Of a stretch of 57,541 nt of DNA, positions 17,080-52,281 are shown one piece after another. Below the pieces are notes generated by a model that was not told the DNA's origin, did no database searches, and saw only the letters and a program-made list of their open reading frames with translations. The DNA is from Sulfuritalea sp. (GTDB taxonomy: Bacteria > Pseudomonadota > Gammaproteobacteria > Burkholderiales > Rhodocyclaceae): assembly GCA_021738385.1 (NCBI GenBank), contig JAIPCF010000008.1, positions 1 through 57,541 on the forward strand. The letters are read 5' to 3'. The translations under genes were made by a program, and so were the position numbers. Within the stretch, counting starts at the first letter, position 1. Every line of letters starts with the position of its first letter.

Positions 17080-17783
17080 GCGGGTTGACTGCGGAACTGG
17101 CCAGCAAGGTACTCGCTACGGCGCGAGCCATGAATGCCTCGGGTATCAATCGCGGCAGTGCCGGCAATGTCAGTGCACGCTGCAAGGGCGGCTTCATCAT
17201 TACGCCGACCGGCATGGACTACGACACCTGCGATGCCGAAGACATGGTTGTCGTCGGACTGGATGGAACACCACAAAAAGTCGGCGATGGCGCGCTCTGC
17301 GTACATGGGATTCCGCTTCGCGGGCAGGTAACGGCGGGCAGACAACGCAAACCCTCGTCCGAATGGCGTTTTCATCGTGATATCTACGCTGCGCGGCCGG
17401 AGGCCGGCGCCGTGGTGCATACGCATTCGCCATTTGCCACCGCGTTGGCCTGCCAGGGAATGTCGGTTCCAGCGTTTCACTACATGGTCGCGCGATTTGG
17501 CGGTATCGACGTGCGCTGCTCGGCCTACGCGACGTTCGGCAGTCAGGAATTGTCGGATGCGATCATCGTCGCGCTGGATCAACGCTGTGCCTGCCTGATG
17601 GCGCATCACGGCATGGTGGTGTTCGGCAGCGACTGTGATCATGCGCTGGCGCTGGCGGTTGAACTGGAAACCCTGTGCGAGCAGTTCTGGCGAGTATTGC
17701 AATTGGGCTCGCCGAAACTGCTGGCAGATGCTGAAATGACGCGCGTGCTGGCCAAATTTGCCAGCTACGGCCAGCAGGAATAA
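17076..17783 (+). CDS. Class II (FucA-like) aldolase, probable 5-(methylthio/deoxy)ribulose-1-phosphate aldolase
   Basis: A 235-residue metal-dependent class II aldolase/adducin-domain protein, translationally coupled to mtnA. It aligns over its length with E. coli L-fuculose-phosphate aldolase: GSAGNVSARC, IITPTGMDYD, KPSSEWRFH (catalytic Glu), VVHTHS and LMAHHG (zinc His), and YATFGSQELSD. Paired with mtnA, the likely substrate is 5-methylthioribulose- or 5-deoxyribulose-1-phosphate, cleaved to DHAP and an aldehyde (as known for Ald2 in Rhodospirillum and some E. coli); this is inference. About 20 extra residues (from KVGDGALCVHG to GRQR, about 68-91) sit between the DG turn and KPSSEW and begin with a copy of the dispersed repeat. 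MtnB dehydratase is the alternative, but the YATFG region favours FucA. Confidence 0.82.
   Translation: MSGLTAELASKVLATARAMNASGINRGSAGNVSARCKGGFIITPTGMDYDTCDAEDMVVVGLDGTPQKVGDGALCVHGIPLRGQVTAGRQRKPSSEWRFHRDIYAARPEAGAVVHTHSPFATALACQGMSVPAFHYMVARFGGIDVRCSAYATFGSQELSDAIIVALDQRCACLMAHHGMVVFGSDCDHALALAVELETLCEQFWRVLQLGSPKLLADAEMTRVLAKFASYGQQE
17275..17292 (+). repeat. Dispersed KVGAG repeat copy in the aldolase gene
   Basis: AAAAAGTCGGCGATGGCG, one mismatch from the core. It is read in sense as KVGDG and begins the extra segment relative to E. coli FucA. Confidence 0.7.
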
Positions 17784-17795
17784 GCGCAGCCGCCT

Positions 17796-18794
17796 CTATT
17801 CGCTGTGGTAGCGGGTAACACGCTCCACTTCCTGCTTCGAGCCGAGGATTACCGGTATGCGCTGATGCAGGCGCTCCGGCTGAATGTCGAGAATCCGCTG
17901 ACGGCCATCGGTAGCAGCGCCGCCCGCCTGCTCGACGATGAACGCCATCGGATTGGCTTCATACATGATGCGCAGCTTGCCGCCCTGGTCGCGTGTCTTG
18001 TTGTCGAGGGGGTAGAGGAAAATACCACCGCGGCTCAAAATGCGATGCACGTCGGCCACCATTGACGCCACCCAACGCATGTTGAAGTCCTGCCCACGCG
18101 GGCCGTCCTTGCCTGCCAGAAGTTCGTCGATATAGCGCTTGACCGGGGCATCCCAGTAGCGTGCATTGGATGCGTTGATGGCGAACTCGCGGGTTTCCTC
18201 GGGTATTTTCACATCGGCCTGGGTCAGCACAAAGCGGCCAAACTCGCGGTCCAGGGTGAACACATTGACGCCATCGCCAAGCGCCAATACCAGCAAGGTT
18301 GTGGGTCCATATACGGCATAGCCGGCGCAGACCTGCTGCGCGCCGGGTTGCAGGAATGCCTGCTCGGTGGGGTCCATACCCTCGGGACATCTCAACACCG
18401 AAAAAATCGTACCGACCGAAACGTTCACGTCGATGTTCGACGAACCGTCGAGCGGGTCGAACAGCAACAGATATTCACCTTTCGGGTAACGGTTGGGAAT
18501 CACATGCGGCAGTTCCATTTCTTCCGAGGCCATGCCGGCCAAATGGCCGCCCCATTCATTGGCATCAAGCAGGATCTCGTTGGAAATCACATCGAGCTTT
18601 TTCTGCACCTCGCCCTGCACGTTGTCGCTGCCGGCGCTGCCCAGCACATCGGCCAGACTGCCCTTGCCGATGGCAATCGAAATCGCTTTGCAGGCGCGCG
18701 AGACAACCTCAATCAGAAGTCGCAGGTCGGGAGAAATGACATTCTTGTCGCGTTGCTCTTCAATCAGAAAGCGGGAGAGGGTGACAGGGCGCAT
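17796..18794 (-). CDS. fbp: Fructose-1,6-bisphosphatase class I
   Basis: Hydrolyses fructose-1,6-bisphosphate in gluconeogenesis. Starts [16 protein letters not shown]. Class I signatures are visible: [21 protein letters not shown], the metal-binding [22 protein letters not shown] written here as [16 protein letters not shown], and the late domain with [15 protein letters not shown] and a truncated-looking but normal C-terminus. The 332-residue length is standard. It is convergent with the aldolase, with only 12 bases between stops. Confidence 0.96.
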
Positions 18795-18936
18795 GATCGG
18801 CTGCAGATGGCGGGTGGAAGAGAGACAAATTATACCGGCGCGCTGCGCTGCTCAGCCGTGCCTTGCCTGGATGCAAGAAAAGGCAAGGTGCAGCGTGTCA
18901 GCGTACTTGGGAAGACTGTTCGGATGTGGGCCCGTG

Positions 18937-20025
18937 TCAGGCTTCAAGCATGCCGCGTATAACATGGTTGAAATGCTCGATCCATTCCGCTGAAAACTGC
19001 CTGTCGCTCGCGTTGATTTCGGCGATGGCGCGCAATAGAGAACGTCCTTCGCCACGATGACCGTGCTTCAGCGTCACCGACTCAAAAGCGTCGATGATGG
19101 AGAGTATCTTGGCGCCGGGGACAATCTGAGCTTCCTTCAGTCCCAGCGGATAACCTCTGCCGTCGACCATTTCGTGGTGCTGAGCGATCATTACCGCAGC
19201 CCCCTGCCAGCCGGCCATGCGCTCGGCGAGTCCGGCGGCGAAAGACGGGTGCTCGCGCATCACCAGTCGTTCGTCATCGGTCAACGTGCCAACCTTTAGC
19301 CAGATCGACTCGGGAAGAAACATCATGCCGATGTCGTGCAGATAGACAGCGGCTTCCAGTTGGATGGTATCCACAGGATTGCCGGCGCGCGCATTGGTCT
19401 CGAACGCCAGTCGCAGCAGTCGCTCGCTGCGTCCCATAAAAAGCGGTGAATAGGTTTCCAGTTGATGCGCCAGGCGCTGGAAAAATCTCAGATCATCGGT
19501 TTTGTTACTGCTTGTCGCCGCGCCGAGTATCAGCTTGGCTTCCGCGCTGGCCGGGCGAAATCCCGTGACGGCCTCAATCAGCGCAACAATGCCGGCATCG
19601 ATCGCGCTGTTATCGCTGATGCTCAAACGCTCGAGGCCATCGATCAGCGTCTGGAGCTTCATTGAATCCAGCGAGCGTTTTTCCAGCAGTGCTTCGACAG
19701 CCAGTTCCAGCCGATCAATGGCCAACAGGATAATTTCCGCCAGAAGCGCCGAGAACTTCAGCTTGCCTTCGCGCACTCTCGCCAGAAGACTCTCGATGGG
19801 ATGCGTGATTCTGACGCCGAGCTCGACGCGACAGATTCCAGCATCGCCTTTGATGGTGTGCAGGGCACGAAACAGCGTTGCGATTGATTCCGGGTCATAA
19901 GGGTCACGCCGCAAATTGCTTACCTGACGTTCCAGTATTGCCACGTGCTCATTCAGGGCATCGCGAAATTCGATCAGTTGATTGCGGTCGGCAATCAAAT
20001 TGTAGTCCGCGGTGGTTTTACCCAT
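18937..20025 (-). CDS. HPt-HD-GYP domain protein, predicted c-di-GMP phosphodiesterase
   Basis: A 362-residue protein with no visible membrane segment. The N-terminal part (about residues 10-120) resembles a histidine phosphotransfer domain: LFRALHTIKGDAGICRV has the HPt His in the HxxKG motif. The C-terminal half is an HD-GYP domain: AVYLHDIGMMFLP (HD pair), MREHPSFAAG, IAQHHEMVDGRGYPLGL (HH and GYP) and GAKILSIIDAFESV. All main metal-binding motifs seem present, so c-di-GMP hydrolysis is plausible. The ATG at 20025 has an excellent GGAGAAGG site; a GTG at 20076 would add 17 residues. The HPt part suggests control by an unlinked histidine kinase; no receiver domain is seen. Confidence 0.82.
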   Translation of the reverse strand: MGKTTADYNLIADRNQLIEFRDALNEHVAILERQVSNLRRDPYDPESIATLFRALHTIKGDAGICRVELGVRITHPIESLLARVREGKLKFSALLAEIILLAIDRLELAVEALLEKRSLDSMKLQTLIDGLERLSISDNSAIDAGIVALIEAVTGFRPASAEAKLILGAATSSNKTDDLRFFQRLAHQLETYSPLFMGRSERLLRLAFETNARAGNPVDTIQLEAAVYLHDIGMMFLPESIWLKVGTLTDDERLVMREHPSFAAGLAERMAGWQGAAVMIAQHHEMVDGRGYPLGLKEAQIVPGAKILSIIDAFESVTLKHGHRGEGRSLLRAIAEINASDRQFSAEWIEHFNHVIRGMLEA

Positions 20026-20266
20026 ATGCCTTCTCCGGAAACGAAGGAAGCAAGCCAACCTCCCAGCGAGGTTCACCTGACTACAACATTATCGGCACTC
20101 TTAGCAAAAGCTTCAATTTATTGGTGATGGCTGCGGCTCAAATTTCTGCATCAGATCAACCTGACCGAAATAGCTGCCAAGGTGTACAGCCTGACGGATA
20201 CAAATAGTTACAAAATATTCAATCCACAAGCTTTGCCGGGTCGCTCTTTACTCCTTTCGTGGTCCA

Positions 20267-20272
20267 TATAAT
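20267..20272 (+). promoter_or_regulatory. Candidate -10 box for the lipoprotein gene
   Basis: A perfect TATAAT lies 63 bases before the lipoprotein ATG. No good -35 hexamer is found at 16-18 bases, so the assignment is tentative. Confidence 0.35.
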
Positions 20273-20334
20273 CGCGTCGCCTCGCCTATCGGCGAGCTGG
20301 ATTTCACCTAAACCCTCACGAAAGCCTCGAAAAC

Positions 20335-20631
20335 ATGAAAACCGCCATTGTTGCCGCTGCACTGTCTGCACTACTGCTGGTTGCTTGCGGCAAGAAGGAA
20401 GCCGCTCCGGCACCCGCCCCGGCTCCCGCCCCTGCTGTCGCTCCGGCTCCTGCTGCCGCACCTGCGCCTGCTGCGACGGACGCTGCTAAGCCGGCCGATG
20501 CCGCTGCCCCGGCTGCTGCACCTGCCGCCGCTCCGGCCGATGCCGCTGCCCCGGCTGCTGCACCTGCCGCCGCTCCGGCCGATGCCGCCAAGCCGGCTGA
20601 CGCTGCCAAGCCCGCTGCAGAAAAGAAGTAA
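20335..20631 (+). CDS. Ala/Pro-rich small lipoprotein
   Basis: A 98-residue protein with a lipoprotein signal, MKTAIVAAALSALLLVAC, with Cys18 as the lipidation site in the LLVAC lipobox. The mature part is almost entirely Ala, Pro, Lys and Asp, with PAPAPAP runs and two perfect 14-residue repeats of the type ADAAAPAAAPAAAP. It ends in PAAEKK. It is followed by a strong terminator. Function is unknown; an extended, flexible periplasmic tether is one possibility. Codon use is very GC-rich because of the composition. Confidence 0.8.
   Translation: MKTAIVAAALSALLLVACGKKEAAPAPAPAPAPAVAPAPAAAPAPAATDAAKPADAAAPAAAPAAAPADAAAPAAAPAAAPADAAKPADAAKPAAEKK
20493..20576 (+). repeat. Two perfect 42-bp tandem repeats in the lipoprotein gene
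   Basis: Units start at 20493 and 20535 and a third, partial one at 20577. Each unit is 14 codons, so copy-number change would keep the frame. Confidence 0.9.
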
Positions 20632-20650
20632 TCCAGCGACGCCTGAAGTA

Positions 20651-20686
20651 AAAAAGGGCCAGCCTACGGGCTGGCCCTTTTTCTTT
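20651..20686 (+). terminator. Rho-independent terminator after the lipoprotein gene
   Basis: A 12-bp stem (20653-20664 with 20669-20680) closes on TACG and is followed by a T-rich tract. It lies about 20 bases after the stop and could act in both directions, as the convergent pyrF ends at 20758. Confidence 0.93.
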
Positions 20687-20757
20687 GGCCTCGAGTCACG
20701 GCGTGAGTCTGAGTCAATTTGAGACAACGAGACCCATTGGATCCGGTTTTGGGTCCA

Positions 20758-21588
20758 CTAGCGCCAGCGGTTGATCGCGTCCCGGGTTTCCTGGGCAACG
20801 CGACTTGCGGCGGCAGCGTAGTCTTCGCCCTTGCCGGCGTAGAGAATGGCGCGTGATGAGTTGATCATCAGTCCGGTGCCGGTGGCTGTCTTGCCTGCAT
20901 TGACGGTGGCTTCGATGTCTCCTCCCTGGGCGCCGATGCCGGGCACCAGCAACGGCATGTCGCCAACGATCTCACGCACGCGGGCGATCTCGCCGGGGAA
21001 GGTGGCGCCGACGACTAGCGCGCACTGGCCCGTGGTGTTCCATTCTTTCGCCACTTTTTCGGCGACGAGTTCAAAGATCGCCGTGTTGCCAGCACCGACT
21101 TTTTGGAATTGCAGATCGCTGCCGCCCGGGTTCGAGGTTCGGCACAGCAGAATCACCCCCTTGTCCGCAAAGGCCAACCAGGGCTCGATGGAATCGCGCC
21201 CCATGTAGGGGTTCACTGTCACCGCGTCGGCGCGATAACGCTCGAAGGCCTCGATTGCATACTGCTCGGCGGTGCTGCCGATGTCGCCGCGTTTGGCGTC
21301 GAGGATCACCGGAATGCCAGGGTGCTTGTCGTGAATGTGCGCGATCAGCGCTTCGAGCTGATCTTCGGCACGACGTGCGGCAAAGTAGGCAATCTGCGGC
21401 TTGAAGGCACAGGCCAGATTCGCCGTGGCGTCGGCGATCTCACTGCAAAATTGCAAAATCGCATCGGGCTTGCCTTGCAGATGCGCAGGAAATTTCGCCG
21501 GGTCGGGATCGAGTCCGACGCAGAGCAGGGAATTGTTTTTCTGCCAGGCGCCGTCAAGCAGTTCGGTGAATCTCACTTTTTGCTCCAT
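20758..21588 (-). CDS. pyrF: Orotidine 5'-phosphate decarboxylase
   Basis: Last step of UMP synthesis. The active-site motif [15 protein letters not shown], the N-terminal [14 protein letters not shown] and the C-terminal [16 protein letters not shown] identify the longer (type 2) PyrF family of about 270 residues. The segment [19 protein letters not shown] contains a variant copy of the dispersed repeat (21080-21107), close to the phosphate-binding half; type 2 homologues usually have a shorter joint here (from memory). The ATG at 21588 lies 16 bases before the glnS stop, so the two are translationally coupled. Confidence 0.95.
21080..21107 (-). repeat. Dispersed KVGAG repeat copy in pyrF
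   Basis: Reads TCCAAAAAGTCGGTGCTGGC on the minus strand, with one mismatch in the core. It is in sense with pyrF and encodes KVGAGNT. Confidence 0.7.
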
Positions 21589-23321
21589 GGGTCTTTTAGC
21601 GTGACGCTGCGGTTGAACACCGGGGCGCCGGGTCTGGAATCGACGCGATCGGCGACAAAATAGCCGTGGCGCTCGAACTGGAACCGGTCTTCGGCAGCGG
21701 CGCTTTGCAGTGAGGCTTCAAGCTGTGCCGTGATCACGCGCTTCGAGTCCGGGTTGAGATCGGTAATGAAATCGCGCCCTTCCGCGCCCGGCGCCTCGAC
21801 GGCGAACAGGCGGTCGTATAACCGAACTTCGCAGGCATAGGCGTGCCGCGCCGAGACCCAATGAATATTTCCCTTGACCTTGTAGTTGTCCGAGCCCGGC
21901 GTGCCGGATTTCGAGTCGGGCATGTATTCGCAGTGCACGGCGCTGATATTGCCCGCTTCGTCCTTGTCGCAGTCCAGGCACTTGATGACAAAGCCGTAAC
22001 GCAGGCGCACGCTATTGCCGGGAAAAAGACGAAAGTAACCCTTGCTCGGTACTTCCATGAAGTCTTCGCGCTCGATCCAGAGTTCCCTCGAGAATGGCAC
22101 CACGCGTTTGCCCCAGTCGGGTTTTTGCGGATGGTTGGGCGCGAGGCATTCCTCTTCCTGCGCCTCGGGGTAGTTGTCGATGATCAGCTTGACCGGGTCG
22201 AGCACCGCGGTGCGGCGCGGCGCGGTTTCGTTGAGATATTCGCGCTGGCATTCTTCCAGCACACTGATGTCGATTAATGAATCGGACTTGGTCACGCCGT
22301 TCATTTCGTTGAAGCGACGGAAGGCCTCCGGCGTGAAGCCGCGCCGGCGCGCGCCGACCAAGGTTGGCAGGCGCGGGTCATCCCAGCCATCGACGTGTTT
22401 GTCTTCGACCAACTGGATCAGCTTGCGCTTGGAGAGCACGACATAGGACAGGTTGAGGCGGGCGAATTCGATCTGCTGCGGCGGCGGCGTGTTGATGCAG
22501 CCGAGCTCGGCCAGGCGCGCCAGCAGCCAGTCGTAAAAAGGCCGCTGGTCCTCGAACTCGAGCGTGCACAAGGAGTGGGTGATGTTCTCCAGCGCGTCTT
22601 CGATCGGATGAGCATAGGTGTACATCGGATAGATGCACCAGGCATCGCCGGTGTTGTGGTGCGTGGCATGGCGGATGCGGTAGATCGCCGGGTCGCGCAG
22701 ATTGATGTTGCCCGAGGCCATGTCGATTTTTGCGCGCAGCACGTGCGTGCCGTCGGCGAACTCGCCCGCCTTCATGGCGCGAAACAGGGCCAGGTTCTCG
22801 GCCGGGGTGCGCGAGCGGTAGGGCGAGGCCTTGCCGGCCTCGGTCAGCGTGCCGCGGCTGGCGCGCATTTCCTCGGCGCTTTGCGAATCGACATAGGCGT
22901 GGCCGGCCTCGATCAACTTCTCGGCGAAGTCGTACATCCACTGGAAGTAGTTGGAGGCGAAGTAGCGGTTCTCCTTCCAGTCGAAGCCCAGCCAATGCAC
23001 CGCGTCGACGATGGAATCGACATACTCCTGCTCTTCCTTTTCCGGATTGGTGTCGTCGAAACGCAGGTGGCAGACACCGGCGTAGTCCTGCGCCAGACCG
23101 AAATTCAGGCAGATCGACTTGGCATGGCCGAAATGCAGGTAGCCGTTGGGTTCCGGCGGGAAGCGGGTGCGAATCTTCGCCGTGTCACCAGCGCCGACTT
23201 TTTGCTGCTCTCCGGGGCCGGGCTGCCCGCTCCAATGGCGTGACGCGTATTTACCCGTCTTGAGATCGGCATCGATGATATGACGAATAAAGTTGGAGGT
23301 TTTGGGTTCTGAATCGGCCAT
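21573..23321 (-). CDS. glnS: Glutaminyl-tRNA synthetase
   Basis: Class I synthetase charging tRNA-Gln. Motifs: HIGH-like [12 protein letters not shown] after [18 protein letters not shown] (KMSKS-like, as VMSKRKL in E. coli), [26 protein letters not shown] and the C-terminal anticodon-binding barrels ending in [11 protein letters not shown]. The length is 582 against 554 in E. coli. Direct comparison with E. coli shows that its four residues TTVH between the N-terminal helix ([15 protein letters not shown] here) and TRFPPEP are replaced by about 26 residues containing KVGAGDTA (about 41-48), which is the dispersed repeat in sense. It is upstream of and overlaps pyrF. Confidence 0.97.
23179..23204 (-). 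repeat. Dispersed KVGAG repeat copy in glnS
   Basis: 24 bases of this copy (23179-23202) are identical to the copy in argJ (40224-40247). In sense with glnS it encodes KVGAGDTA inside an N-terminal insertion. Confidence 0.9.
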
Positions 23322-23765: not shown

Positions 23766-27532
<3,767 letters not shown>

Positions 27533-27554
27533 CGGAAAAGGACAAGGGTTGATG

Positions 27555-29049: not shown

Positions 29050-29104
29050 TCGACAACCTGTGCAAGTCTGGTTGCGTTGAATCATGCCCGCAAGCTGACG
29101 TGAA

Positions 29105-29270
29105 TCTTCTCAAATAGTTGATTTAGTTTCGACGTCACGCCCAGAAGCGGGCATGAGTCTTCTCAAATAGTTGATTTAGTTTCGACGTCACGCCCAGAAG
29201 CGGGCATGAGTCTTCTCAAATAGTTGATTTAGTTTCGACGTCACGCCCAGAAGCGGGCATGAGTCTTCTC
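29105..29270. repeat. Three tandem 53-bp repeats between the MoCF and GGDEF genes
   Basis: Units start at 29105, 29158 and 29211 and appear identical; a 7-base start of a fourth is at 29264-29270. Each contains GCCC-AGAAGC-GGGC, a short inverted repeat, and a TGATTTAG stretch. A degenerate piece with ATGCCCGC precedes them (29083-29090). They fill most of the 331-base gap and contain no gene. With no spacers between units this is not a CRISPR. Confidence 0.95.
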
Positions 29271-31883: not shown

Positions 31884-31986
31884 TTAACCACAGAGACACA
31901 GAGGCACAGAGAAATGCCCACAGAGAACACTCAGTTTTTATTTGTTGCATTCGCTTTTCTCTGTGCCTCTGTGTCTCTGTGGTGAA
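31884..31986. repeat. CACAGAG-type inverted repeat, copy 3 (nitrilase-tldD gap)
   Basis: Arms 31884-31914 and 31955-31986 are nearly perfect complements built on ACAGAGACACAGAGGCACAG. Same family as the copies at 2797-2895 and 3979-4062, with a different centre of about 40 bases. Confidence 0.9.
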
Positions 31987-32033
31987 TGGTTGGTATTCTG
32001 TTTGCAAAATGCAAGGCTCCACGTGGCGGCGAA

Positions 32034-39727: not shown

Positions 39728-40978
39728 ATGCCTGTCAATTACGCCACCCCGGCCGCTGAATCCCTTTTCCCTGTCGCTGGTGTTCGTCTCGGCACCGCAG
39801 AGGCAGGGATTCGCAAGAAAAATCGTCGCGATCTGACTTTGATCGAGCTTGCTCCGGGCAGTCAGGCCGCCGGCGTGTTCACGCAGAACAGATGCTGCGC
39901 CGCGCCCGTCACGTTGTGTCGAGAGCATCTGGCCAGCGGCGGCGGTAATCGTGCGCTGGTCATCAACACCGGCATCGCCAATGCGGCCACGGGCGAACAG
40001 GGCATGCACGCCGCACGCGAGACCTGCGCGGCGGTGGCGCAGTTGCTGAACTGCGAAGCCGATCAAGTGCTGCCGTTCTCGACCGGGGTGATTCTCGAGC
40101 ATCTGCCGGTAGATCGCCTGATTGCTGGCCTGCCCGCCGCCCAGGCCGATCTTGCAGCGGATCACTGGCACGCCGCCGCGCATGCCATCATGACCACGGA
40201 TACAGTGGCCAAGGCTGCCAGTCGCCGTGTCACCAGCGCCGACTTTTCAATTACCGTTACCGGCATCAGCAAAGGCGCCGGCATGATCCGCCCCAACATG
40301 GCGACCATGCTTGGATTCGTCGCCACCGACGCCGGAATTGAGCCGCAGCTACTGCAGCAACTGGCGAAAGACGCCGCCGATGTTTCGTTCAACTGCATCA
40401 CCGTGGACGGCGATACCTCAACCAATGACTCTTTTGTCGTCATCGCTACCGGTGCCTCGGGCTGCATGATTGAAAGCGAGGCGTCGCCTCACTGGCAAAC
40501 AGTTCGCGACGCGGTAATCGGCGTCGCCCAGAAGTTGGCGCAGGCCATCGTGCGCGACGGCGAGGGCGCCACCAAGTTCATCACCCTGAAAGTCGGCGGT
40601 GGCGGTACGGCGCAGGAATCCCGTCTGGTGGCGTATGCCATCGGTCATTCACCCTTGGTCAAGACGGCTTTCTTCGCCTCCGATCCCAATCTCGGGCGTA
40701 TTCTTGCGGCGATAGGTTACGCCGGCATCGCCGACCTCGATGCTGCTGCTGTGCGCGTCTGGTTGGGCTGTGGACTCGGCGACAGCTTCGAGGAAGTACT
40801 GGTTTCGGAAAATGGCGGTCGTGCTGCCAGCTATCGCGAAGAAGACGGTGCCCGAATCATGGCGGAAGCCGAAATCACCGTGCGGGTCGATCTCGCCCGT
40901 GGCGAAGCAGAGGCTACGGTCTGGACCTGTGACCTTTCCTACGACTACGTAAAAATCAACGCCGACTACCGGTCGTAG
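39728..40978 (+). CDS. argJ: Bifunctional ornithine acetyltransferase/N-acetylglutamate synthase ArgJ
   Basis: Transfers the acetyl group of N-acetylornithine to glutamate in the cyclic arginine pathway. The precursor cleaves itself before T193 in the motif NMATMLGF, and [10 protein letters not shown] and [16 protein letters not shown] are typical. 416 residues is normal. Two repeat-related segments lie inside: an antisense copy at 40223-40248, which codes SRRVTSADF, and a diverged sense copy at 40589-40612, which codes KVGGGGTA. They replace residues in loops of the family with little or no change in length. Confidence 0.97.
40223..40248 (-). repeat. Dispersed KVGAG repeat copy, antisense in argJ
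   Basis: 24 bases are identical to the glnS copy, but the element is read from the opposite strand relative to the gene and therefore encodes RRVTSADF rather than KVGAG. Confidence 0.85.
40589..40612 (+). repeat. Diverged KVGAG repeat copy, sense in argJ
   Basis: AAAGTCGGCGGTGGCGGTAC followed by GGCG; resembles the copy at 41978-42000. Encodes KVGGGGTA. It may be chance similarity given the Gly-rich coding. Confidence 0.4.
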
Positions 40979-41472: not shown

Positions 41473-42153
41473 TCCCCTGTTTTATTCGATGCGAGCGCTT
41501 GGCGAGCCCGACCTGAGGACTCAACAAACACCGTTCTGATCTAACCAAAACGTACTTGCAGCGTATTCCTTTGGCGCTGGTTAGTCAGCGAAAACAGGAG
41601 GTGAAACAGCGGTCAATTTGGCGCCAGCTTTTCGAGTGCGTATCGGATGCTCAAGTAGCCAGCTGCGGACAAAGCGAGTCCGCTTGCGCTGCAATGCTGC
41701 CGGTGCGCAAGGCTGCGTCAGATTCGCGATACTGACTTGCGCCACGCTTGGTTGCTCGCAAGCGATAGCAGAGGCCACCGAAAATTGGTGGTGCGTGATT
41801 ACCTGCAACCAGCGGGGGTAGCTCGGGCCAACATGGGGGGGCTGAAAAATCCTTTTGACGAGGGGAGGTGGATAGTGAAGCTGATAGCAATGCGACCTCG
41901 CTCGTCCCTCCCGGCCCTCGGAAATTGCATGTTTGCCGGGAGCGGCAATGGGTTAAGTGCTGCAAGCAAGGGGGCAATAGTCGGCGCTGGTGGTACGGCG
42001 AAGTTTCAAGAGAGTGCAAGGTTCACTCGCCTGGAGCAATCCGCTGGAAGGTGGGTGCAGCGATGGCTACAGGAAACTGGAGTCCTCCAGCCACGAGGCA
42101 TTCATTGGGTCAACGCCGATTACCGGCCGTCGATTCGAAGGACGCGGCCGGAA
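41473..42153. other. Poorly coding 0.7-kb stretch between an exported protein and a PAS-GGDEF gene
   Basis: All frames here give short, compositionally odd products with no recognised motif. It may be a decayed gene or long intergenic sequence. The only named element is a copy of the dispersed repeat at 41978-42000. I found no transposase remnant or tRNA. Confidence 0.5.
41978..42000 (+). repeat. Dispersed KVGAG repeat copy in the non-coding stretch
   Basis: TAGTCGGCGCTGGTGGTACG then GCG, matching the core outside any supported gene. Confidence 0.6.
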
Positions 42154-43155
42154 TTACTTTGCGGCTTGGTCTCCCTGGGCTGCGACTACACGATTGCGTC
42201 CGGCGTGCTTCGCTTCGTAAAGAGCGCTGTCGGCCGAAGCGATCAGGCTCGCCTCAGTCAGTTCGGGTGCGGGGTGCGTGGTCGATACGCCGATGCTCAA
42301 ACTCACTCGACCCAGTTCGCTGGCGCCATGGGGAATCTCGAGAGCGGCAACGTGATCAAGAACGCGCTGTGCGATGCCCTGTGCGCCAACCGTGTCGGTT
42401 GAGGACAGGATGACGGCGAACTCCTCGCCACCGTAACGGGCAACCAGATCGCCCGGTCGATGCACCACCTGCTCCAGTACCTGGGCAATTTTCTGCAGGC
42501 AGGTATCTCCTGCCTGATGTCCGTAAGTATCGTTGTAGCGCTTGAAGTGATCGACATCGATCATGAGTAGCGACAAGGCTTTGCGGCCACGGCGATCGCG
42601 CATCCATTCATTGGCCAATCTTTCGTCAAAGCTGCGACGGTTGGCAACGCCTGTCAGGCCATCGCGGCTGGCGAGTTTTTCGAGTGCGGTCTGGGCATTG
42701 CGGTGTTCGGTGACGTCGCGCAGGGTTTCGATGACAGCCAGCAGGCGACCGGATTCGTCATAAATCGGGCCGGCGTCGATGGCGAGATAGAGCCTCGTGT
42801 CGCGACAGGGCATGACACACCAGTTTTCGGCATGCACGCCGAAGGACACCTCCGCGATGTTGTCGTGTTGGGTGTAGAGCGACTTGGCTTCGTCCATGCG
42901 TCCTTGCGCTAGCAGATCGGCCAGACAGGGGCGGGGTGATTCGTAGAATGCACGCCAGTGGTCGCGGGTGCCGATGACCTCCTCGGCTTTGATTCCGGTC
43001 AGCCTTTCGCAGGCCTTGTTCCAGATCAGGACATTGCACTCGGCATCAAGCACAAAAGTCGGAACTACCAGATGCTGCATCAGGTGCACCGCAAAGTTCT
43101 GGCCGAGATCGATATGCACCTTTTTCGGCCGCCCGCTTGCCTCCTCCATCTTCAT
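42154..43155 (-). CDS. PAS-GGDEF diguanylate cyclase
   Basis: A 333-residue cytosolic protein. A PAS domain (about 20-150: MQHLVVPTFVLDAECNVLIW, WNKACERLTGIKAEEVIG, and a C-terminal PAC-like AGPIYDESGRLLAVIETLRD) is followed by a GGDEF domain with DVDHFKRYNDTYGHQAGD, the active site GGEEF, and the I-site RPGD five residues before it. The ATG at 43155 is well spaced from GGAG; a TTG at 43167 adds four residues. The product is likely c-di-GMP, with output tuned by the PAS domain and product inhibition. No membrane segment is seen. Confidence 0.92.
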   Translation of the reverse strand: MKMEEASGRPKKVHIDLGQNFAVHLMQHLVVPTFVLDAECNVLIWNKACERLTGIKAEEVIGTRDHWRAFYESPRPCLADLLAQGRMDEAKSLYTQHDNIAEVSFGVHAENWCVMPCRDTRLYLAIDAGPIYDESGRLLAVIETLRDVTEHRNAQTALEKLASRDGLTGVANRRSFDERLANEWMRDRRGRKALSLLMIDVDHFKRYNDTYGHQAGDTCLQKIAQVLEQVVHRPGDLVARYGGEEFAVILSSTDTVGAQGIAQRVLDHVAALEIPHGASELGRVSLSIGVSTTHPAPELTEASLIASADSALYEAKHAGRNRVVAAQGDQAAK

Positions 43156-44867: not shown

Positions 44868-46174
44868 GGCTTGGCCCACGGTGATGCTGCGCGGCGCGCC
44901 GCATCGCCCTTCTGCCAGTAGGCGTCGTGATCCTTGCCGCTATCCACGCCGTCGTAAGAGGCGGGGCCAACCAGTTGTGCGGCACTGAGCGCCGTGGGGC
45001 GCATCGGCGCCGTTTCGCCAGCGCCGACTTTTTCGATGGCGTCGGCAAGCAGGCGACGGTAGACGATGATGGCCTTGTCGGTGCTGCCCAAGTGTTCGCG
45101 CGTGCGGTTCTGAATCGAGCCCTGTGATTCGCAGGCCCACTGGTCATGCACGTTGATGTCGTGGCCCATGCCGGTAAAAGTCTGCGTCGCCTGCTCCTCG
45201 ACACTGAAGCCCCAGTGGTTGGATCGATTGCGATTGGGCCGGAAATCGGGCGGCGGGTAGGTCTGGATGCGCTGTTCCCACATCGCCGGTTTGTCTACGG
45301 GCGGGCCGAAGCTGGTGAAGATCGAGTACCAGTAGTTGTTGTGATCGTCGACCGGAACGTGGAACTGGGTGATGGTCATGTGCGAACTCATGGGAATCAC
45401 AAAGGCCTGGGGGAAGGCGATGTTGGTGACGCGGACATGGGTCTGGCTCTCGTCGAGCACGCGCAGGGTCGTGATGCGCAGGCCGTAGTCGGTCGTAGCG
45501 ACCGAAATCTCGGGTCGGTCGTATTCACGCAGCACCTTGGTAATTGGCACGTCGGAGTCCGACGAGGCTCCGCGAAATTGTTTGCCGTAGCTTTCCTCCG
45601 TATTCTCGTCTTCGAAAAACCGGTGCAGGTAGGAGGCGTGGGCCGGGTCCATGCCGACTTCGAGCGCCTGCAGCCAGTTGCATTCCCACAGGCCCTTGAA
45701 GGCAAAAGTGTAGGCGTCGGGCGCCGTGAAACAATCAAAGGCGGGGAAGGCGGGCGGCTCGCCGCTGCCGATGTATGCAAAGAGTACACCGGCCTTTTCG
45801 ACAAGCGGATAGGAGCGCTGCTTTACGTGTTTGCACAGATGACTGGTTGCTGGTTCGGCCGGGGTATCCAGGCAATTGCCGTGAACATCGAAGAGCCAGC
45901 CATGAAACGCGCAGCGCAAGCCGCCATCTTCCAGTCGGCCGTAGGCGAGATCGGCATTGCGGTGTGGGCAATCCCTGTCCAGCAAGCCATAGCGACCTTC
46001 GGCATCGCGAAACAGGACAAAGTCATCACCCATCAGGCGCACGGCACGGATCGGTTTTTTCGGATCGAATTCGGCGACCAGCGCTACCGGTTGCCAGTAT
46101 TGCCTCAGCAGTTTTCCCGCCGGCGTGCCGGGTCCGACCCGGGTAAGTTTGTCGTTGTGCTCGGCGCTGATCAT
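44864..46174 (-). CDS. Rieske [2Fe-2S] oxygenase, phthalate-dioxygenase-type alpha subunit
   Basis: A 436-residue terminal oxygenase. The Rieske cluster site is CPHRNADLAYGRLEDGG followed by LRCAFHGW (Cys-x-His ... Cys-x2-His). The mononuclear iron site is within LEVGMDPAHASYLHRFF. The layout is that of the phthalate 4,5-dioxygenase family (type IA, reductase separate), and no reductase or ferredoxin gene is adjacent. The start is one of ATG 46174 (six bases after AGGTG) or 46180. The C-terminal part carries the dispersed repeat as EKVGAGETAP. The substrate is unknown; the following GS-like ligase suggests an amine or anilide. Confidence 0.9.
   Translation of the reverse strand: MISAEHNDKLTRVGPGTPAGKLLRQYWQPVALVAEFDPKKPIRAVRLMGDDFVLFRDAEGRYGLLDRDCPHRNADLAYGRLEDGGLRCAFHGWLFDVHGNCLDTPAEPATSHLCKHVKQRSYPLVEKAGVLFAYIGSGEPPAFPAFDCFTAPDAYTFAFKGLWECNWLQALEVGMDPAHASYLHRFFEDENTEESYGKQFRGASSDSDVPITKVLREYDRPEISVATTDYGLRITTLRVLDESQTHVRVTNIAFPQAFVIPMSSHMTITQFHVPVDDHNNYWYSIFTSFGPPVDKPAMWEQRIQTYPPPDFRPNRNRSNHWGFSVEEQATQTFTGMGHDINVHDQWACESQGSIQNRTREHLGSTDKAIIVYRRLLADAIEKVGAGETAPMRPTALSAAQLVGPASYDGVDSGKDHDAYWQKGDAARRAASPWAKP
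45009..45034 (-). repeat. Dispersed KVGAG repeat copy in the Rieske oxygenase gene
   Basis: GAAAAAGTCGGCGCTGGCGA then AACGGC on the minus strand, in sense, encoding KVGAGETA near the C-terminus. Confidence 0.85.
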
Positions 46175-46206: not shown

Positions 46207-46222
46207 TCAATTGTATACACCA
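46207..46222. promoter_or_regulatory. Candidate operator/promoter box upstream of the Rieske gene
   Basis: The palindrome TGTATACA (46212-46219) inside ATTGTATACACC lies about 35 bases before the Rieske start and resembles GntR-family sites. No regulator gene is adjacent, so this is tentative. Confidence 0.3.
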
Positions 46223-46228
46223 CTGCAA

Positions 46229-47145: not shown

Positions 47146-48032
47146 AACTGGGTTTCATCGGATTTGGCACCATGGGTCGTCCCATGGCGGAACATCTGCT
47201 GCGCGCAGGACACACTTTGTCTGTTTGGTCGCGACGACGGGAGTCCGCGGCTGCATTGGTCGATCAGGGAGCTCAGTGGTGCACTTCACCGGCTGAAGTC
47301 GCCGGGAGTTCAGACGTGGTCTGCACCAATGTAACGGGCAGCGTTGACGTCGAAGGTATTGCATTTGGTTCACAGGGGCTGGCGGAGGGCTTTGCCGCGG
47401 GAGGGTTGCATGTGGATTTTTCCACTATCTCCGCGTCTGCTGCGCGGCGTATTGCGGAACGCTACGCTGCGCGGGGCGTCGATTTTGTCGACGCTCCGGT
47501 GTCCGGCGGCGGCGGCGGTGCGCAGAACGCCACGCTGGCCATCATGTGGGGTGGAAAGTCGGCGCTGGCGACACGGCTACAACCGATCTTCGAGGTGCTG
47601 GGCAAGACCATTGTGCGCGTCGGTGATACGGGCGCCGGGCAGGTAGCCAAGGCTTGCAACCAGATGGTGATGGTGGCGGCGATTGAGGCGGCGGCCGAAG
47701 CAGCCAGATTGGCGGATGCGTCTGGTGTCGACTTCGCACTGGTTCGTGCCACCATGCTGGGTGGTTCTGCTGGCTCAAAGGTATTGGACGTATTCGGCGG
47801 ACGCATGGCAGCGCGGGATTTCAAAGCCGGCGTTGAAGCGCGTCTGCATCACAAGGACTATGCCCTGCTGATGGATGAGGCGACCCGAATCGGCGCAGCT
47901 TTGCCTGTTTCCGCAGCCGTATGGCAGCAACTGAATGCGCTGATGGGCTTGGGCTGGGGAACGGGCGATACATCTTCGCTGCTGCGTGTGCTCGAAACAT
48001 GCGGTACATCGAGCCAGGCGGATGAACGGTAG
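47142..48032 (+). CDS. 3-hydroxyisobutyrate-dehydrogenase-like NAD(P)-dependent oxidoreductase
   Basis: A 296-residue beta-hydroxyacid dehydrogenase. N-terminal Rossmann fold GFIGFGTMGRPMAEHLL, substrate-binding DAPVSGGGGGAQNATLAIM, and the catalytic Lys in GQVAKACNQM (family consensus G-x-x-x-K). The GlxR or 3-hydroxyisobutyrate branch is likely, but the substrate is not determinable. TTG at 47142 overlaps the DUF4202 stop. A copy of the dispersed repeat at 47553-47577 is in another frame, giving KSALATR. The 3' end overlaps the next gene by 11 bases. Confidence 0.9.
   Translation: MKLGFIGFGTMGRPMAEHLLRAGHTLSVWSRRRESAAALVDQGAQWCTSPAEVAGSSDVVCTNVTGSVDVEGIAFGSQGLAEGFAAGGLHVDFSTISASAARRIAERYAARGVDFVDAPVSGGGGGAQNATLAIMWGGKSALATRLQPIFEVLGKTIVRVGDTGAGQVAKACNQMVMVAAIEAAAEAARLADASGVDFALVRATMLGGSAGSKVLDVFGGRMAARDFKAGVEARLHHKDYALLMDEATRIGAALPVSAAVWQQLNALMGLGWGTGDTSSLLRVLETCGTSSQADER
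47553..47577 (+). repeat. Dispersed KVGAG repeat copy, other frame, in the dehydrogenase gene
   Basis: GGAAAGTCGGCGCTGGCGAC then ACGGC. Same strand as the gene, but the reading phase differs, so it gives KSALATR instead of KVGAG. Confidence 0.75.
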
Positions 48033-50592
48033 ATCGATTTCCTTGCCGTCGAAGAAGGCGGCTCTCGAACTCAGCGCAATTTTCGAGAACGCGACTGTCG
48101 GTATTCTGGTTTCGCACAATCGGCGGCTGGTTCAGGCCAATCGGCTGTGCGCCGAGATGTTCGGCTATTCGCTGGACGAGTTCATCGACCAGCCGGCACT
48201 GATTCTTTATGCTGACCAGGACGCTTATTCAGCCCTCGGGCGCGAGGCAGGACCGGTGCTCGTCGCTGGCCGCTCATTCCGCGCGGAGACGCAACTCAAG
48301 CGCAAGAGCGGGGAGTTGTTCTGGTGCCGGGTTTCGGCCAAAGCGGTTGATCCCGAGCACCCGAGCGACGGCACCCTTTGGATCATCGAGGACATCACCG
48401 ATGACCGCAGGATGATCGACGCGCTCGAGCGCAGCACCCGCGAACTGTCGGCGATTTTTAATTCCGCGTCGATCGGAATTGCCGTCGTGCGCGACCGGAT
48501 TTTTGTACGGTGCAATCGTCGCTACGAAGAAATACTTGGGCTGCCTATCGGTTCGCTGCTAGGACAGTCCACCCGGCGACTGTTCGGTAGCGATGAGGAA
48601 TTCAAGCGCATAGGAGATCAGGTTTATGCCGACTTCGCCGCCGGCAAGATACATCACCGCGAACAGACGTATCTGCGCAGCGACGGCAAACCGGTACGGC
48701 TGAGAGTGAGCGGAAGCGTTTTCGATCTGGAGAAACCGCATGAGGGCTCCGTTTGGTTGACGGAAGACATCACCGCCATACATGAGGCGGAGGCGCGTGC
48801 GCGCAAGGCCTTCGACGAGCAGCAGATGATTTTCGACAATGCGGCGGTGGGTATTCTTTACTCACGTGATCGAATGATCGAAAGTTGCAACAGCCGGCTC
48901 GCCGAGATTTTCGGCTACCAGCCGGAAGAGCTTGCTGGCCGCTCCACTCGAATGTTTTACCTCAGCGAGGCTGATTACCAGCGGCACAGCGCCGAAGCGC
49001 TTCCGGTGCTGAGGGAAGGCCATACCTATGTCGGCGAGGCCCGGGTACGCCATCGGGACGGCCATCCCTTCTGGGTGCGTGCCACCGGACGTCAGGTCAT
49101 GAGCCAGACCGAAAGCCTCGATCTGACCTGGATCTTCGAAGACGTCACCGAACGTCATGCGGCGGAGGAGGCCTTGCTGCTCGCTCATGAAGAGCTGGAG
49201 CAGCGCGTAATCGAGCGCACTGCCGAGTTGGAAAATACCAATACTCAGTTGCAGGAGGAAGTGTTCGAGCGCATGCAGGCCGAGCAGCGTATCTGGCACG
49301 TTGCCCACCATGATGGCCTGACCGGTCTGCCCAACCGTACTTTGCTGCATGACAGACTGGAGCAGGCTCTGGCGCAAGGGCAGCGTGGCCGGCATCGCGT
49401 TGCGGTTATGTTTCTTGACCTCGACCGTTTCAAAACCATTAACGATACGCTGGGCCATTTTGTTGGCGACGAACTCCTGAAGCATGTCGCAGAGCGCTTG
49501 CGCAGCGTGGTAAGAGCCGTGGATACCGTATCGCGCCTGGGTGGCGACGAGTTTGTGGTGATCCTGCACGAGATTGCCTCACCCGACGATGCACTGCAAG
49601 TCGCGGAGAAGATACTCAACTCATTGGCGGAGGTCGTGGACATCGAAAGTCATCAGCTGCATGTGACGCCGTCCATTGGCATCAGCATTTTTCCTGACGA
49701 TGGAGATGAGGTTTTTGTCCTCATGAAAAACGCTGACACGGCGATGTATCACGCGAAGGAAAGCGGGCGCAACAATTTCCAGTTCTTTGCGCGGAAAATG
49801 AACGAGCAGGCCGAGCACTTTTTTACCCTGGAGAACCGGCTGCGACATGCCATCGAGAACAAACAACTGGTGTTGCACTATCAGCCGCTGATTGACTGGC
49901 GTCGTCGCGAGGTATGCGGCATGGAAGCGCTGGTGCGCTGGAGCGATCCGGAGCATGGAACGATAACGCCGGGTGAGTTCATTCCGATCGCCGAGGAAAC
50001 CGGATTGATTGTACCGATCGGCGAGTGGGTCCTGGGTGAAGCGCTGCAGCAGAACAGGATCTGGCAACAGGAAGGCAGGCCGCTGCTGCCGGTTTCGGTG
50101 AATCTGTCACCGCGCCAGTTTCACCAGAGTGATCTGGTCGATACCTTGCGTCGCATTCTGGCTGACACCGGGCAACCAGCCCGGTTGCTGGAACTGGAAA
50201 TTACCGAATCAACGCTGATGCATGACATTGACGAGACGCGGGCCAAGCTTCAGGAAATTGCGGCCATGGGCATACGGCTGGCCATTGATGATTTCGGTAC
50301 GGGCTATTCGAGCCTGAGCTATCTCAAGCGCTTCCCGATGCAAAAACTGAAAATCGACCAGAGCTTTGTGCGCGATCTCACTGTCAATGCAGAAGACGCG
50401 GCCATCGTTACCGCCATTGTCGGGCTCGCCAAAAGTCTGGGCCTCGAACTGCTGGCCGAGGGTGTGGAAACCCGTGATCAGTTTGAGCTGCTGCTTGGCA
50501 TCGGTTGTGAAAAGTTTCAGGGGTTTCTGTTCTCGCGGCCCTTGCCGTCCGATGAAGCTGACCGAATCTTCAGGCCTGCGCTGCTGAAATGA
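48022..50592 (+). CDS. PAS-PAS-PAS-GGDEF-EAL c-di-GMP regulator
   Basis: An 856-residue protein without clear membrane segments. Three PAS domains (about 10-130, 130-260 and 260-390, each with an internal IFENA/IFNSA/IFDNA start) are followed by a short coiled coil (about 385-425), a GGDEF domain with LGGDEF and I-site RAVD, and an EAL domain. EAL residues are complete: EALVRW, NLSPRQF, LEITES, DDFGTGYSSLSYLKRFP, KIDQSF and AEGVET. Both synthesis and hydrolysis are therefore possible. ATG 48022 overlaps the dehydrogenase gene by 11 bases. It probably responds to an oxygen, redox or small-ligand cue. Confidence 0.93.
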   Translation: MNGRSISLPSKKAALELSAIFENATVGILVSHNRRLVQANRLCAEMFGYSLDEFIDQPALILYADQDAYSALGREAGPVLVAGRSFRAETQLKRKSGELFWCRVSAKAVDPEHPSDGTLWIIEDITDDRRMIDALERSTRELSAIFNSASIGIAVVRDRIFVRCNRRYEEILGLPIGSLLGQSTRRLFGSDEEFKRIGDQVYADFAAGKIHHREQTYLRSDGKPVRLRVSGSVFDLEKPHEGSVWLTEDITAIHEAEARARKAFDEQQMIFDNAAVGILYSRDRMIESCNSRLAEIFGYQPEELAGRSTRMFYLSEADYQRHSAEALPVLREGHTYVGEARVRHRDGHPFWVRATGRQVMSQTESLDLTWIFEDVTERHAAEEALLLAHEELEQRVIERTAELENTNTQLQEEVFERMQAEQRIWHVAHHDGLTGLPNRTLLHDRLEQALAQGQRGRHRVAVMFLDLDRFKTINDTLGHFVGDELLKHVAERLRSVVRAVDTVSRLGGDEFVVILHEIASPDDALQVAEKILNSLAEVVDIESHQLHVTPSIGISIFPDDGDEVFVLMKNADTAMYHAKESGRNNFQFFARKMNEQAEHFFTLENRLRHAIENKQLVLHYQPLIDWRRREVCGMEALVRWSDPEHGTITPGEFIPIAEETGLIVPIGEWVLGEALQQNRIWQQEGRPLLPVSVNLSPRQFHQSDLVDTLRRILADTGQPARLLELEITESTLMHDIDETRAKLQEIAAMGIRLAIDDFGTGYSSLSYLKRFPMQKLKIDQSFVRDLTVNAEDAAIVTAIVGLAKSLGLELLAEGVETRDQFELLLGIGCEKFQGFLFSRPLPSDEADRIFRPALLK

Positions 50593-50655
50593 GCTCAGGC
50601 ATAATGGCCGACCCGTTCAATTCCTAATCTGCAATTCTTATTCTGGAGATTTTCA

Positions 50656-51000
50656 ATGAGTCAAATCACCACGGCCAGCGGCCTGGTCATCGAAGAACTT
50701 GTGATCGGCGAGGGCGCCGAGGCCAGCGTCGGGCAAACCGTGTCGGTGCATTACACAGGCTGGCTCACGGACGGGTCGAAATTTGACTCAAGCAAGGATC
50801 GCAACGAGGCCTTCGAGTTTTCGCTGGGGCGTCAGCATGTAATCGCCGGTTGGGATGAAGGTGTGCAAGGCATGAAAATTGGCGGTTCGCGCAAACTGAC
50901 CATTCCGCCTGAGCTTGGCTATGGCGCCCGAGGTGCGGGCGGCGTGATTCCTCCCAATGCGACACTGGTGTTCGAGGTCGAACTGCTCGGCTTGAGCTGA
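50656..51000 (+). CDS. FKBP-type peptidyl-prolyl cis-trans isomerase
   Basis: A 114-residue single-domain cytosolic FKBP. Active-site residues sit in [38 protein letters not shown] and [21 protein letters not shown]. Size and N-terminus indicate a free-standing isomerase with no chaperone insert or signal peptide. GGAGATTTTCA precedes the ATG. Downstream aminotransferase begins 38 bases later. Confidence 0.95.
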
Positions 51001-51037
51001 TAGCGTAAAGCCGCCTCTCGCGTTTTAAAGCAAATCC

Positions 51038-52210
51038 ATGACGCTTTATCTGCCATCACGCCTGCCGAATGTCGGCACCACGATTTTCACTGTCATGTCA
51101 CGCCTTGCCGCCGAGCATGGTGCGATCAATCTTTCTCAGGGATATCCCGATTTCGCGCCATCGCCATTGCTGCTTGATCGGGTGACGCATCACATGGCGG
51201 CGGGCGCCAACCAGTATCCGCCAATGGCTGGCGTCCCGGCTTTGAGAGAGGCGATTGCCGAAAAAGTAGCGCGGCTCTATTTGGCCAACTACGATTCTGA
51301 AACCGAGGTGACGGTGACGGCCGGGGCGACTCAGGCCGTATATACGGCAATTGCCGCCTGCGTCAGGCCCGGTGACGAGGTGATTGTTTTCGCTCCGGTG
51401 TATGACTCCTACGTTCCTGGGGTTGAACTCAATGGCGGACACGCCGTGTATGCGCATCTGCGTTTTCCCGACTTCAAGCCCGACTGGGATGAAGTCCGTG
51501 CCTTGATCACACCACGTACCCGCATGATCATCATCAACTCACCGCATAACCCGAGCGGTTCGGTGTGGTCTGCCGATGATATGGCGATGCTGGAAACCCT
51601 GGTGCGGGACACCAAGATCGTGGTGGTCAGCGATGAAGTTTACGAGCACGTAGTATTCGACCGAAAAGATGCCGGGGACAGAAAGGCCCGGCACGAAAGC
51701 GTGACGCGTTACCCGGGATTGCGCGAGCGCAGTTTTGTGGTTTCCAGTTTTGGCAAGACCTATCACGTCACCGGCTGGAAAGTCGCTTACTGCCTTGCGC
51801 CGAGGGCCCTGATGAGCGAGTTCCGCAAGGCCCACCAGTTCATCGTGTTTACCGTGCACCATCCGTCACAGTTGGCACTGGCTGATTTCATGAGCGAGCA
51901 TCCCGAGTTTGCCGACAATCTGGCGGCCTTCTATCAAGCCAAGCGCGATTTCTTCCGCCAGAAAATGGAGGGCTCGCGCTTTGTGCTGTTGCCCTGCGAC
52001 GGAACCTATTTTCAGCTCGCGACCTATTCCGCGATCAGCAATGAGCCCGACACGCAATTCGTTCGGCGCCTGACCAAGGAACACGGCGTTGCTGCCATTC
52101 CGGTTTCGGTGTTCAATCCCGATGGTGACGACCAGCGCGTGATTCGTTTCTGTTTTGCCAAGAACGAAGACACGCTCGCCGCTGCCGCGGAGCGCCTAAG
52201 CGCCCTATAG
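51038..52210 (+). CDS. PLP-dependent methionine-type aminotransferase (YbdL-like)
   Basis: A 390-residue fold-type I aminotransferase with close similarity to E. coli YbdL, which acts on methionine and aromatic amino acids: NLSQGYPDF, NQYPPMAGVPALREAIA, INSPHNPSGSVWS, SDEVYEHVVF, the PLP lysine in SSFGKTYHVTGWK, and RVIRFCFAKNEDTL. Such enzymes can act last in methionine salvage, which matches the mtnA gene in this window, but this is inference. Eight residues around RKDAGDRK in front of ARHESV are absent from YbdL. It is followed by a repeat copy and the phasin terminator. Confidence 0.92.
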   Translation: MTLYLPSRLPNVGTTIFTVMSRLAAEHGAINLSQGYPDFAPSPLLLDRVTHHMAAGANQYPPMAGVPALREAIAEKVARLYLANYDSETEVTVTAGATQAVYTAIAACVRPGDEVIVFAPVYDSYVPGVELNGGHAVYAHLRFPDFKPDWDEVRALITPRTRMIIINSPHNPSGSVWSADDMAMLETLVRDTKIVVVSDEVYEHVVFDRKDAGDRKARHESVTRYPGLRERSFVVSSFGKTYHVTGWKVAYCLAPRALMSEFRKAHQFIVFTVHHPSQLALADFMSEHPEFADNLAAFYQAKRDFFRQKMEGSRFVLLPCDGTYFQLATYSAISNEPDTQFVRRLTKEHGVAAIPVSVFNPDGDDQRVIRFCFAKNEDTLAAAAERLSAL

Positions 52211-52254
52211 TCGCCGCTGTCTGCAGGCGCAGAGCGTGCCCAGGTACGCAGAAC

Positions 52255-52281
52255 ACCGTATCGCCAGCGCCGACTTTTCCA
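52255..52281 (-). repeat. Dispersed KVGAG repeat copy in the aminotransferase-phasin gap
   Basis: GGAAAAGTCGGCGCTGGCGA then TACGG on the minus strand. An intergenic copy, so the element is not confined to genes. It lies next to the phasin terminator. Confidence 0.8.

Follow-up and report, generated by a model that had tools for sequence, protein, structure and literature searches.

A word of about 25 bp, AAAGTCGGCGCTGGYGNNACGGCGA, is scattered through a 57,541-nt stretch of DNA from Sulfuritalea sp. (Rhodocyclaceae; contig JAIPCF010000008.1, positions 1 to 57,541; hereafter the window), and comparison with other genomes confirms it as a real genus-wide repeat of Sulfuritalea, with hundreds of copies in genes and in the gaps between them. 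This word is probably a recognition tag with a co-evolving reader. With less assurance, we lean towards a combined reading in which it is a Sulfuritalea-wide, DNA-level, sequence-specific recognition tag that works like a DNA uptake sequence (DUS); an uptake-like role taken by itself is put forward tentatively. In the mechanism that we propose, a DNA-binding protein would read the 25-mer, and its specificity would have shifted in at least one species. Less certainly, tagged DNA fragments may be preferentially passed between relatives and recombined, and such recombination would pull near-matches towards the preferred word (molecular drive).

Abundance and distribution of the word

The 19-mer core of the word was matched 13 times in the window at up to three mismatches, against a mean of 0.07 and a maximum of 1 in 100 dinucleotide shuffles, while the whole assembly (3.34 Mb, 82% complete) holds 601 core matches (280 forward and 321 reverse) against 5 (2 and 3) for the pattern read backwards. 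The original prediction, made from the window alone, had claimed about eleven copies and a recurrence beyond chance, and both claims stand: each of the eleven places is right to a few bases. Ten are among the 13 core matches; the eleventh, given as 17275, lies at 17277 and falls outside the 13 because an insert splits it. As a list it was incomplete, having missed the copies at 4977, 16389 and 27016 and a degenerate one at 3391. Counts in the genome and its relatives are far above expectation rather than near it. At up to two core mismatches, all 31 Sulfuritalea genomes surveyed carry the word (17 to 451 matches each), whereas 30 genomes of other genera hold 0 to 4 matches each, with zero in 25 of the 30. 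Strong genome-wide over-representation within one lineage, a defining feature of DUS and of uptake signal sequences (USS), is thus found here.

The single-contig genome G002, with dnaA at base 113, was sampled in 40 stretches (800 kb, 21% of the genome), which hold 136 copies at up to four mismatches to the 25-mer pattern (0.17 per kb) against 1 in the reversed control. Copies per 20 kb are close to Poisson (mean 3.40, variance 3.32), and stretches of low GC carry fewer (Spearman 0.50, p 0.001). The conserved block, judged from 52 copies in 400 kb of this genome, extends from about position -1 to position 25 and leaves positions 16 and 17 free.

A scan of named genomes matched at least 119 stretches, many titled Sulfuritalea and others Rhodocyclaceae or Rhodocyclales; among the matches listed, a few bear other titles (Propionivibrio, Rugosibacter, Sulfurisoma, Gammaproteobacteria), all placements being from titles only. 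Samples of five other-genus genomes (596 kb) held no copy at up to four mismatches and one at five, and the top repeated words inspected there belonged to a repeat array within a gene, to a CRISPR-like array or to a short repeat near GCCGCTCCCAC. Rfam at its gathering threshold matched nowhere in the window, the phages searched gave no match, and plasmids gave two weak ones. The exact word occurs in 36 IMG/VR stretches, which beyond one copy per stretch hold 24 in 348 kb, or about 0.07 per kb against 0.17 in G002. One of these IMG/VR contigs (L401) is 8,415 bases long, as is a Sulfuritalea contig bearing glnS (G008:C88; compared by length), and given this equal size host DNA may be mixed into the IMG/VR matches.

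Copies arise in place

Regions of conserved synteny with the window were taken from 15 further genomes, and 117 copies (up to three mismatches) yielded 968 pairs of orthologues, of which 688 have the word (up to five mismatches) and 280 lack it; a pair was left out, and not counted, unless its alignment spanned the site by 40 nt. Net length change was zero in 216 of the 280 motif-less pairs and ranged from -14 to +39 in the rest, several long gains being insert-bearing copies, and no motif-less orthologue was shorter by more than 14 nt. In an earlier run over mixed loci, none of 29 motif-less pairs had a gap as long as 15; 82 pairs were dropped there because the alignment missed the site. Since motif-less orthologues are mostly without length change, the 25-mer appears to be made by substitution rather than insertion, and on this alignment evidence its copies can be said to arise in place. 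Three sites in glnS and argJ tell the same: GlnS was matched in 30 of 30 genomes searched (some partially) and ArgJ in 29 of 30, and once aligned, six other-genus genomes are gap-free at these sites and carry different residues, not the same residues as Sulfuritalea. Word-less Sulfuritalea are gap-free there too, except for insert-bearing or length-variable glnS copies.

These data bear on the idea, raised in the original prediction, that the word is a mobile mini-element. Such an element, comparable to the small dispersed repeats of Nostoc or to the inverted doublets of repetitive extragenic palindromic sequences (REPs) known as REPINs, would copy itself into tolerated places. Longer, modular forms with clean inserts at fixed points would suit it, as would IS200-like transposases in 12 of 14 Sulfuritalea genomes, several with a copy shortly downstream. 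For the 25-mer itself the idea is not supported by the length data just given; dead copies would hardly undergo concerted base change at many old sites (see below), fewer than 200 nt separate just one pair of neighbouring copies in 858 kb, genome G018 has 324 motif matches without a transposase match, and the repeats at transposase ends look by eye like other sequences. We give it a slim chance.

Mismatch counts at orthologous sites are bimodal outside genome G016, with 132 cells at 0–5 mismatches, 5 at 6–7 and 48 at 8–13 (18 sites, at least four species each). Motif-less orthologues lean towards the word, as 15 of these 48 cells stand at 8 or 9 mismatches against about 9% of random places, the cells not being independent.

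Upkeep, re-spelling and near-loss

The word seems to be kept up. Copies differ between species at a rate of 0.077 over the 23 fixed positions, against 0.177 for their 25-nt flanks and 0.373 for the two free positions; these figures come only from gapless pairs at up to three mismatches, a choice that favours conservation.

Among 16 species with at least eight copies each, one clearly spells the word in its own way. Of the 17 distinct copies in G010, 9 have A at position 7, against 6 of 437 elsewhere (p 5e-11), and 13 have G at position 1, against 122 of 437. Compared with its sister G004, 6 of 10 shared sites have changed at each of positions 7 (G to A) and 1, and the change at position 7 replaces glycine with aspartate in both GlnS and ArgJ. 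The mean is 4.7 mismatches in G010 against 2.2 in G004, over 12 hand-picked shared sites at which G004 was often the anchor, which biases the comparison; the mismatches in G010 do not fall at random. A second, less clear case is G001, where position 5 is T in 7 of 15 copies against 7 of 439 elsewhere (p 3e-8). Species dialects with concerted change, a further feature of DUS and USS, thus appear in G010 and G001. Other flags raised in this comparison are ascertainment in G000 (loci picked by exact match), a mild shift in G002 (position 1 G in 75 of 185) and, in G016, position 4 C in 4 of 11, about half of which are background (6 matches in the reversed control against 11).

Genome G016 has nearly lost the word. 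It holds no copy at up to three mismatches in 151 kb, where about 23 are predicted from G002 (121 in 800 kb), one copy with two mismatches in the 170 kb read, and 17 matches genome-wide, against 84 to 451 in the other 30 Sulfuritalea genomes. At 17 orthologous cells one copy stands at 2 mismatches, seven at 6–8 and nine at 9–12, the background peaking at 11. The orthologous sites thus show a word that has, to judge by its partly matching remnants, eroded almost to nothing. When a new dialect was sought in G016 by expectation maximisation, the search wandered off into background, and we set its result aside.

Concerted change together with erosion is how the sites of a co-evolving recogniser would behave, as in the DUS dialects of Neisseriaceae, which are conserved within species in the account excerpted from PMC3630211. 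Among the explanations offered in the original prediction, an uptake-type or protein-binding tag is on this ground of concerted change the best fit.

Placement in genes, frame and strand

Gene placement was scored in 857,541 bases (the 40 G002 stretches and the window), with genes called by a simple purpose-made caller whose coding fraction, 0.776, is probably low. Of 149 copies, 84 are genic, 61 intergenic and 4 lie across a gene edge. Genic sense copies number 41 in frame 0, 12 in frame 2 and 0 in frame 1, and antisense copies 16, 14 and 1 in frames 1, 2 and 0, so that five of the six gene-relative frames are occupied; by our reading of the word, SRRWRHG and CRQRRL are the kind of run that the avoided frames would encode. 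Selection on the peptide KVGAG-X-T could account for the 41 genic copies in sense frame 0, but the 43 genic copies in other frames and the 61 between genes refute it, as the original prediction had foreseen, and the different residues in the six other-genus genomes add to this; we consider it hardly credible.

Density, with these rough gene calls, is highest between convergent genes (1.03 per kb) and falls to 0.50 between divergent and 0.31 between tandem genes and to about 0.13 in called coding sequence; among 26 tandem intergenic copies, 15 have a stop codon no more than 35 nt away. Tolerated frames and an excess outside genes, as far as the rough gene caller can tell, are again features of DUS and USS. 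The same densities and stop-codon distances would suit an element of transcription end or regulation, but 84 of 149 copies are genic and in both orientations, and folding of the 25-mer gave nothing significant (z -1.57 and -0.98), which makes such an element very unlikely. Within genes the copies show no bias to gene ends (deciles 9 7 8 10 13 4 7 4 14 8).

A signal of chromosome organisation was another suggestion of the original prediction; we weighed it together with recombination signals, as the FtsK-orienting polar sequence (KOPS), Chi or macrodomain type. The word is non-palindromic, abundant and near-Poisson per 20 kb, and its concerted change and loss would fit any co-evolving DNA-binding protein. 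GC skew in G002 flips sign near 1.9 Mb, and over the 40 stretches no orientation bias by replichore was found (right arm 32 forward and 42 reverse, left arm 29 and 33, p 0.67), which speaks against the polar kinds and leaves that version of the suggestion unsupported; a first impression of polarity from 20 stretches was gone with 40. KOPS and Chi are also far shorter than the 25-mer. On balance a chromosome signal is unlikely, if less so than a mobile element.

Inserts inside the word

Some copies are interrupted at fixed points by short inserts. In type B, AAAGT is followed by TATGCGNAGCGGTATCCCC..GGGA (24 or 27 nt) and then by CGGCGCTGG; in type C, ..GGCG is followed by a 36-nt gain and then by ACGGCG, as in the window copy at 17277–17336. 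Further glnS forms have 21 to 39 nt added. At the insert-bearing sites of glnS, argJ and a helicase gene, relatives carry the uninterrupted word, and clean length changes are seen only for these inner inserts, not for the 25-mer. Counted in both orientations, the module GCGNAGCGGWATCCC turns up at 30 distinct places (up to one mismatch) in 4.1 Mb against 2 in the control: 9 are type B, 9 type C and 12 other, in loose, automatic classes that still include orthologues. Of the 12, three share a common further arrangement (L126, L167, L366), two are tandem and seven seemingly unrelated. Insert families were seen at L180, L181, L182, L183, L196, L148, L092, L234, L041, L046, L049, L194 and L171 and at window positions 17277–17336. 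Folding of the longer, insert-bearing forms revealed nothing significant either (z between -1.60 and 1.26 with the 25-mer included), so we do not call the inserts hairpins. The idea of a mobile element may still apply to these short inserts.

Candidate machinery

ComEC was found in 17 of 17 genomes, and 16 of 17 have a DprA match that passes the cut-off; both also occur in genomes without the motif. The ComEC and DprA expected of DUS and USS bearers are thus present. ComP_DUS-family (PF16732) matches occur in 19 of 19 genomes, both with and without the motif, and GspH matches in 17 of 17. A strong HHH_3 match confined to a long reading frame is present in 9 of 12 motif-bearing Sulfuritalea, that of G000 being Tex by Pfam, and G002, G009 and G012 have no HHH_3 match of any kind; within Sulfuritalea, HHH_3 matches in short frames occur only in G016. 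A TIGR00426 search gave a like picture. None of these candidate genes accounts for the near-loss in G016 or the shift in G010.

The IS200-like transposase was not matched in G016 or G018, and the PF01797 transposase was rejected as a maintaining factor because none was matched in G018, with its 324 motif matches. At L379, L383, L384, L385, L387, L391 and L397 an IS200-like gene is followed, within about 200 nt on its downstream side, by a 25-mer copy, and one of these genes is named, below cut-off, as a REP-associated tyrosine transposase (RAYT). Copies downstream of transposases may mirror the general excess at gene ends.

Several points weigh against a tag that works like an uptake sequence. 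No stand-alone ComEA-type HHH_3 match was found in any of the 12 motif-bearing Sulfuritalea (E up to 0.001; very short or divergent genes could escape), and the ComP-like, GspH-like, ComEC and (G004 excepted) DprA genes do not separate tag-bearing from tag-less genomes. G004 itself lacks a DprA match over the cut-off despite 446 motif matches; this genome is 99% complete, and the gap may be one of assembly. No more than 2 of the 16 species show clear concerted change, and G001 is the weaker of them: its T at position 5 counts for less, being silent in frame 0. Dialect and erosion data come mostly from metagenome-assembled genomes and from one region of about 60 kb. In the glnS and argJ tree G016 falls inside the genus, with support of 33–72 at several nodes, and with support this weak the case for loss rather than late gain rests mainly on the remnants; G016 may also hold an undetected dialect. 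At two argJ sites the states look punctuated and abrupt, with few intermediates, which a stepwise drive must explain. Finally, the word has 25 bp where the DUS of Neisseriaceae have 10–12 bp.

Having found no ComEA-type protein, we describe the tag as one that may work like an uptake sequence and do not file it as a member of that class. A related but less favoured possibility is a self-tag spread by molecular drive without standard ComEA-dependent uptake. This tag would also be the specific landing site of a family of short inserts (recurrently 24–36 nt), so that one layer would have a reader and the other an inserter.

Relation to known systems

To our knowledge, uptake-type words are firmly established only in Pasteurellaceae and Neisseriaceae. 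The inner inserts of Sulfuritalea, short and nested in another repeat, recall the small dispersed repeats of Nostoc; the 25-mer differs from these in not being an insertion itself (clean insertion in 0 of 280 motif-less pairs). With the DUS of Neisseriaceae, as excerpted from PMC3630211, the word shares its nature as a dispersed, over-represented, non-palindromic sequence with species dialects, and it differs in its host family, Rhodocyclaceae, and in the lack of a ComEA-type match in the 12 motif-bearing genomes. The USS of Pasteurellaceae are alike in having hundreds to thousands of copies and a frame preference, whereas the Sulfuritalea word is a GC-rich 25-mer and the intragenic bias of USS to gene termini is not evident in it (excerpts of PMC2346458). 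REPs and REPINs with their RAYTs are likewise short dispersed repeats (in the part of PMC3116915 drawn on here), and RAYT-type genes occur in most of Sulfuritalea; the 25-mer, however, is neither palindromic nor arranged in inverted pairs (one close pair; fold z -1.57), is more often genic than intergenic, and is not matched to transposase presence. Highly iterated palindrome 1 (HIP1) of cyanobacteria is also a frequent genome-wide word, but it is an 8-bp palindrome, GCGATCGC, according to excerpts of PMC4390886, against 25 bp in Sulfuritalea. Titles and abstract openings in part of the literature on Sulfuritalea, repeats and uptake sequences contain no description of this repeat. If of uptake type, the 25-mer would extend such words to a third family, an environmental one, in a long form that shows both a dialect and a documented loss; it would offer a separate instance in which to study their origin and their readers. 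As natural experiments, the changed spelling of G010 relative to its sister G004 and the near-disappearance from G016 might lead to a receptor gene.

Copies in the window

Ten host open reading frames (ORFs) were tested against Pfam: two Mur ligases, an IF-2B-like protein, an aldolase II, an OMP decarboxylase, a class I (E and Q) tRNA synthetase, a helicase with DUF3418, ArgJ, a Rieske protein and an NAD-binding dehydrogenase. The glnS and argJ copies, whose likeness the original prediction had noted, are both perfect matches to the 25-mer pattern, the first in sense frame 0 (KVGAGDTA; 23177..23201, minus strand) and the second antisense (40222..40246, minus); the G014 orthologue of this argJ copy has a 27-nt insert. 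A second argJ copy lies in sense frame 0 (KVGGGGTA; 40589..40613, plus). Sense frame 0 also holds the copies in the second Mur-ligase gene (EVGVGDTA; 4977..5001, plus), the OMP decarboxylase-family gene (KVGAGNTA; 21078..21102, minus), the helicase/DUF3418 gene (KVGAGTTV; 26714..26738, plus), whose G014 orthologue has a 36-nt insert, and the Rieske-protein gene (KVGAGETA; 45007..45031, minus). In sense frame 2, all on the plus strand, are those in the IF-2B-family gene (16389..16413), a second in the helicase/DUF3418 gene (27016..27040) and one in the dehydrogenase gene (GKSALATR; 47555..47579). The class II aldolase gene carries the split type C copy (17277..17336, plus), made up of a left part at 17277–17292, the insert, and ACGGCG at 17331–17336; its orthologues in G004 and G022 are uninterrupted 25-mers. 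The first Mur-ligase gene has an antisense copy with three mismatches (200..224, minus), and the degenerate copy at 3391..3415 (minus; five mismatches), inside ORF 2901–3962, has orthologues elsewhere at 2–6 mismatches. The copy at 41977..42001 (plus) lies within mechanically listed ORFs (41737–42402 and 41868–42413, plus; 41651–42019, minus), and that at 52253..52277 (minus) falls between ORFs 51038–52210 and 52372–52935.

Other repeats are present in the window. Inverted CACAGAGACACAGAGG-type repeats lie at 2797–2895, 3979–4062 and 31884–31988, and the G016 sample is rich in a CAGAGGCGCAGAGG repeat that resembles them. Tandem units with a 53-nt spacing occupy 29082–29270, and the Mur-ligase ORF at 60–1625 contains a 52-nt direct repeat, 94% alike, at 1176–1308, with a spacing of 81 nt, a multiple of three.

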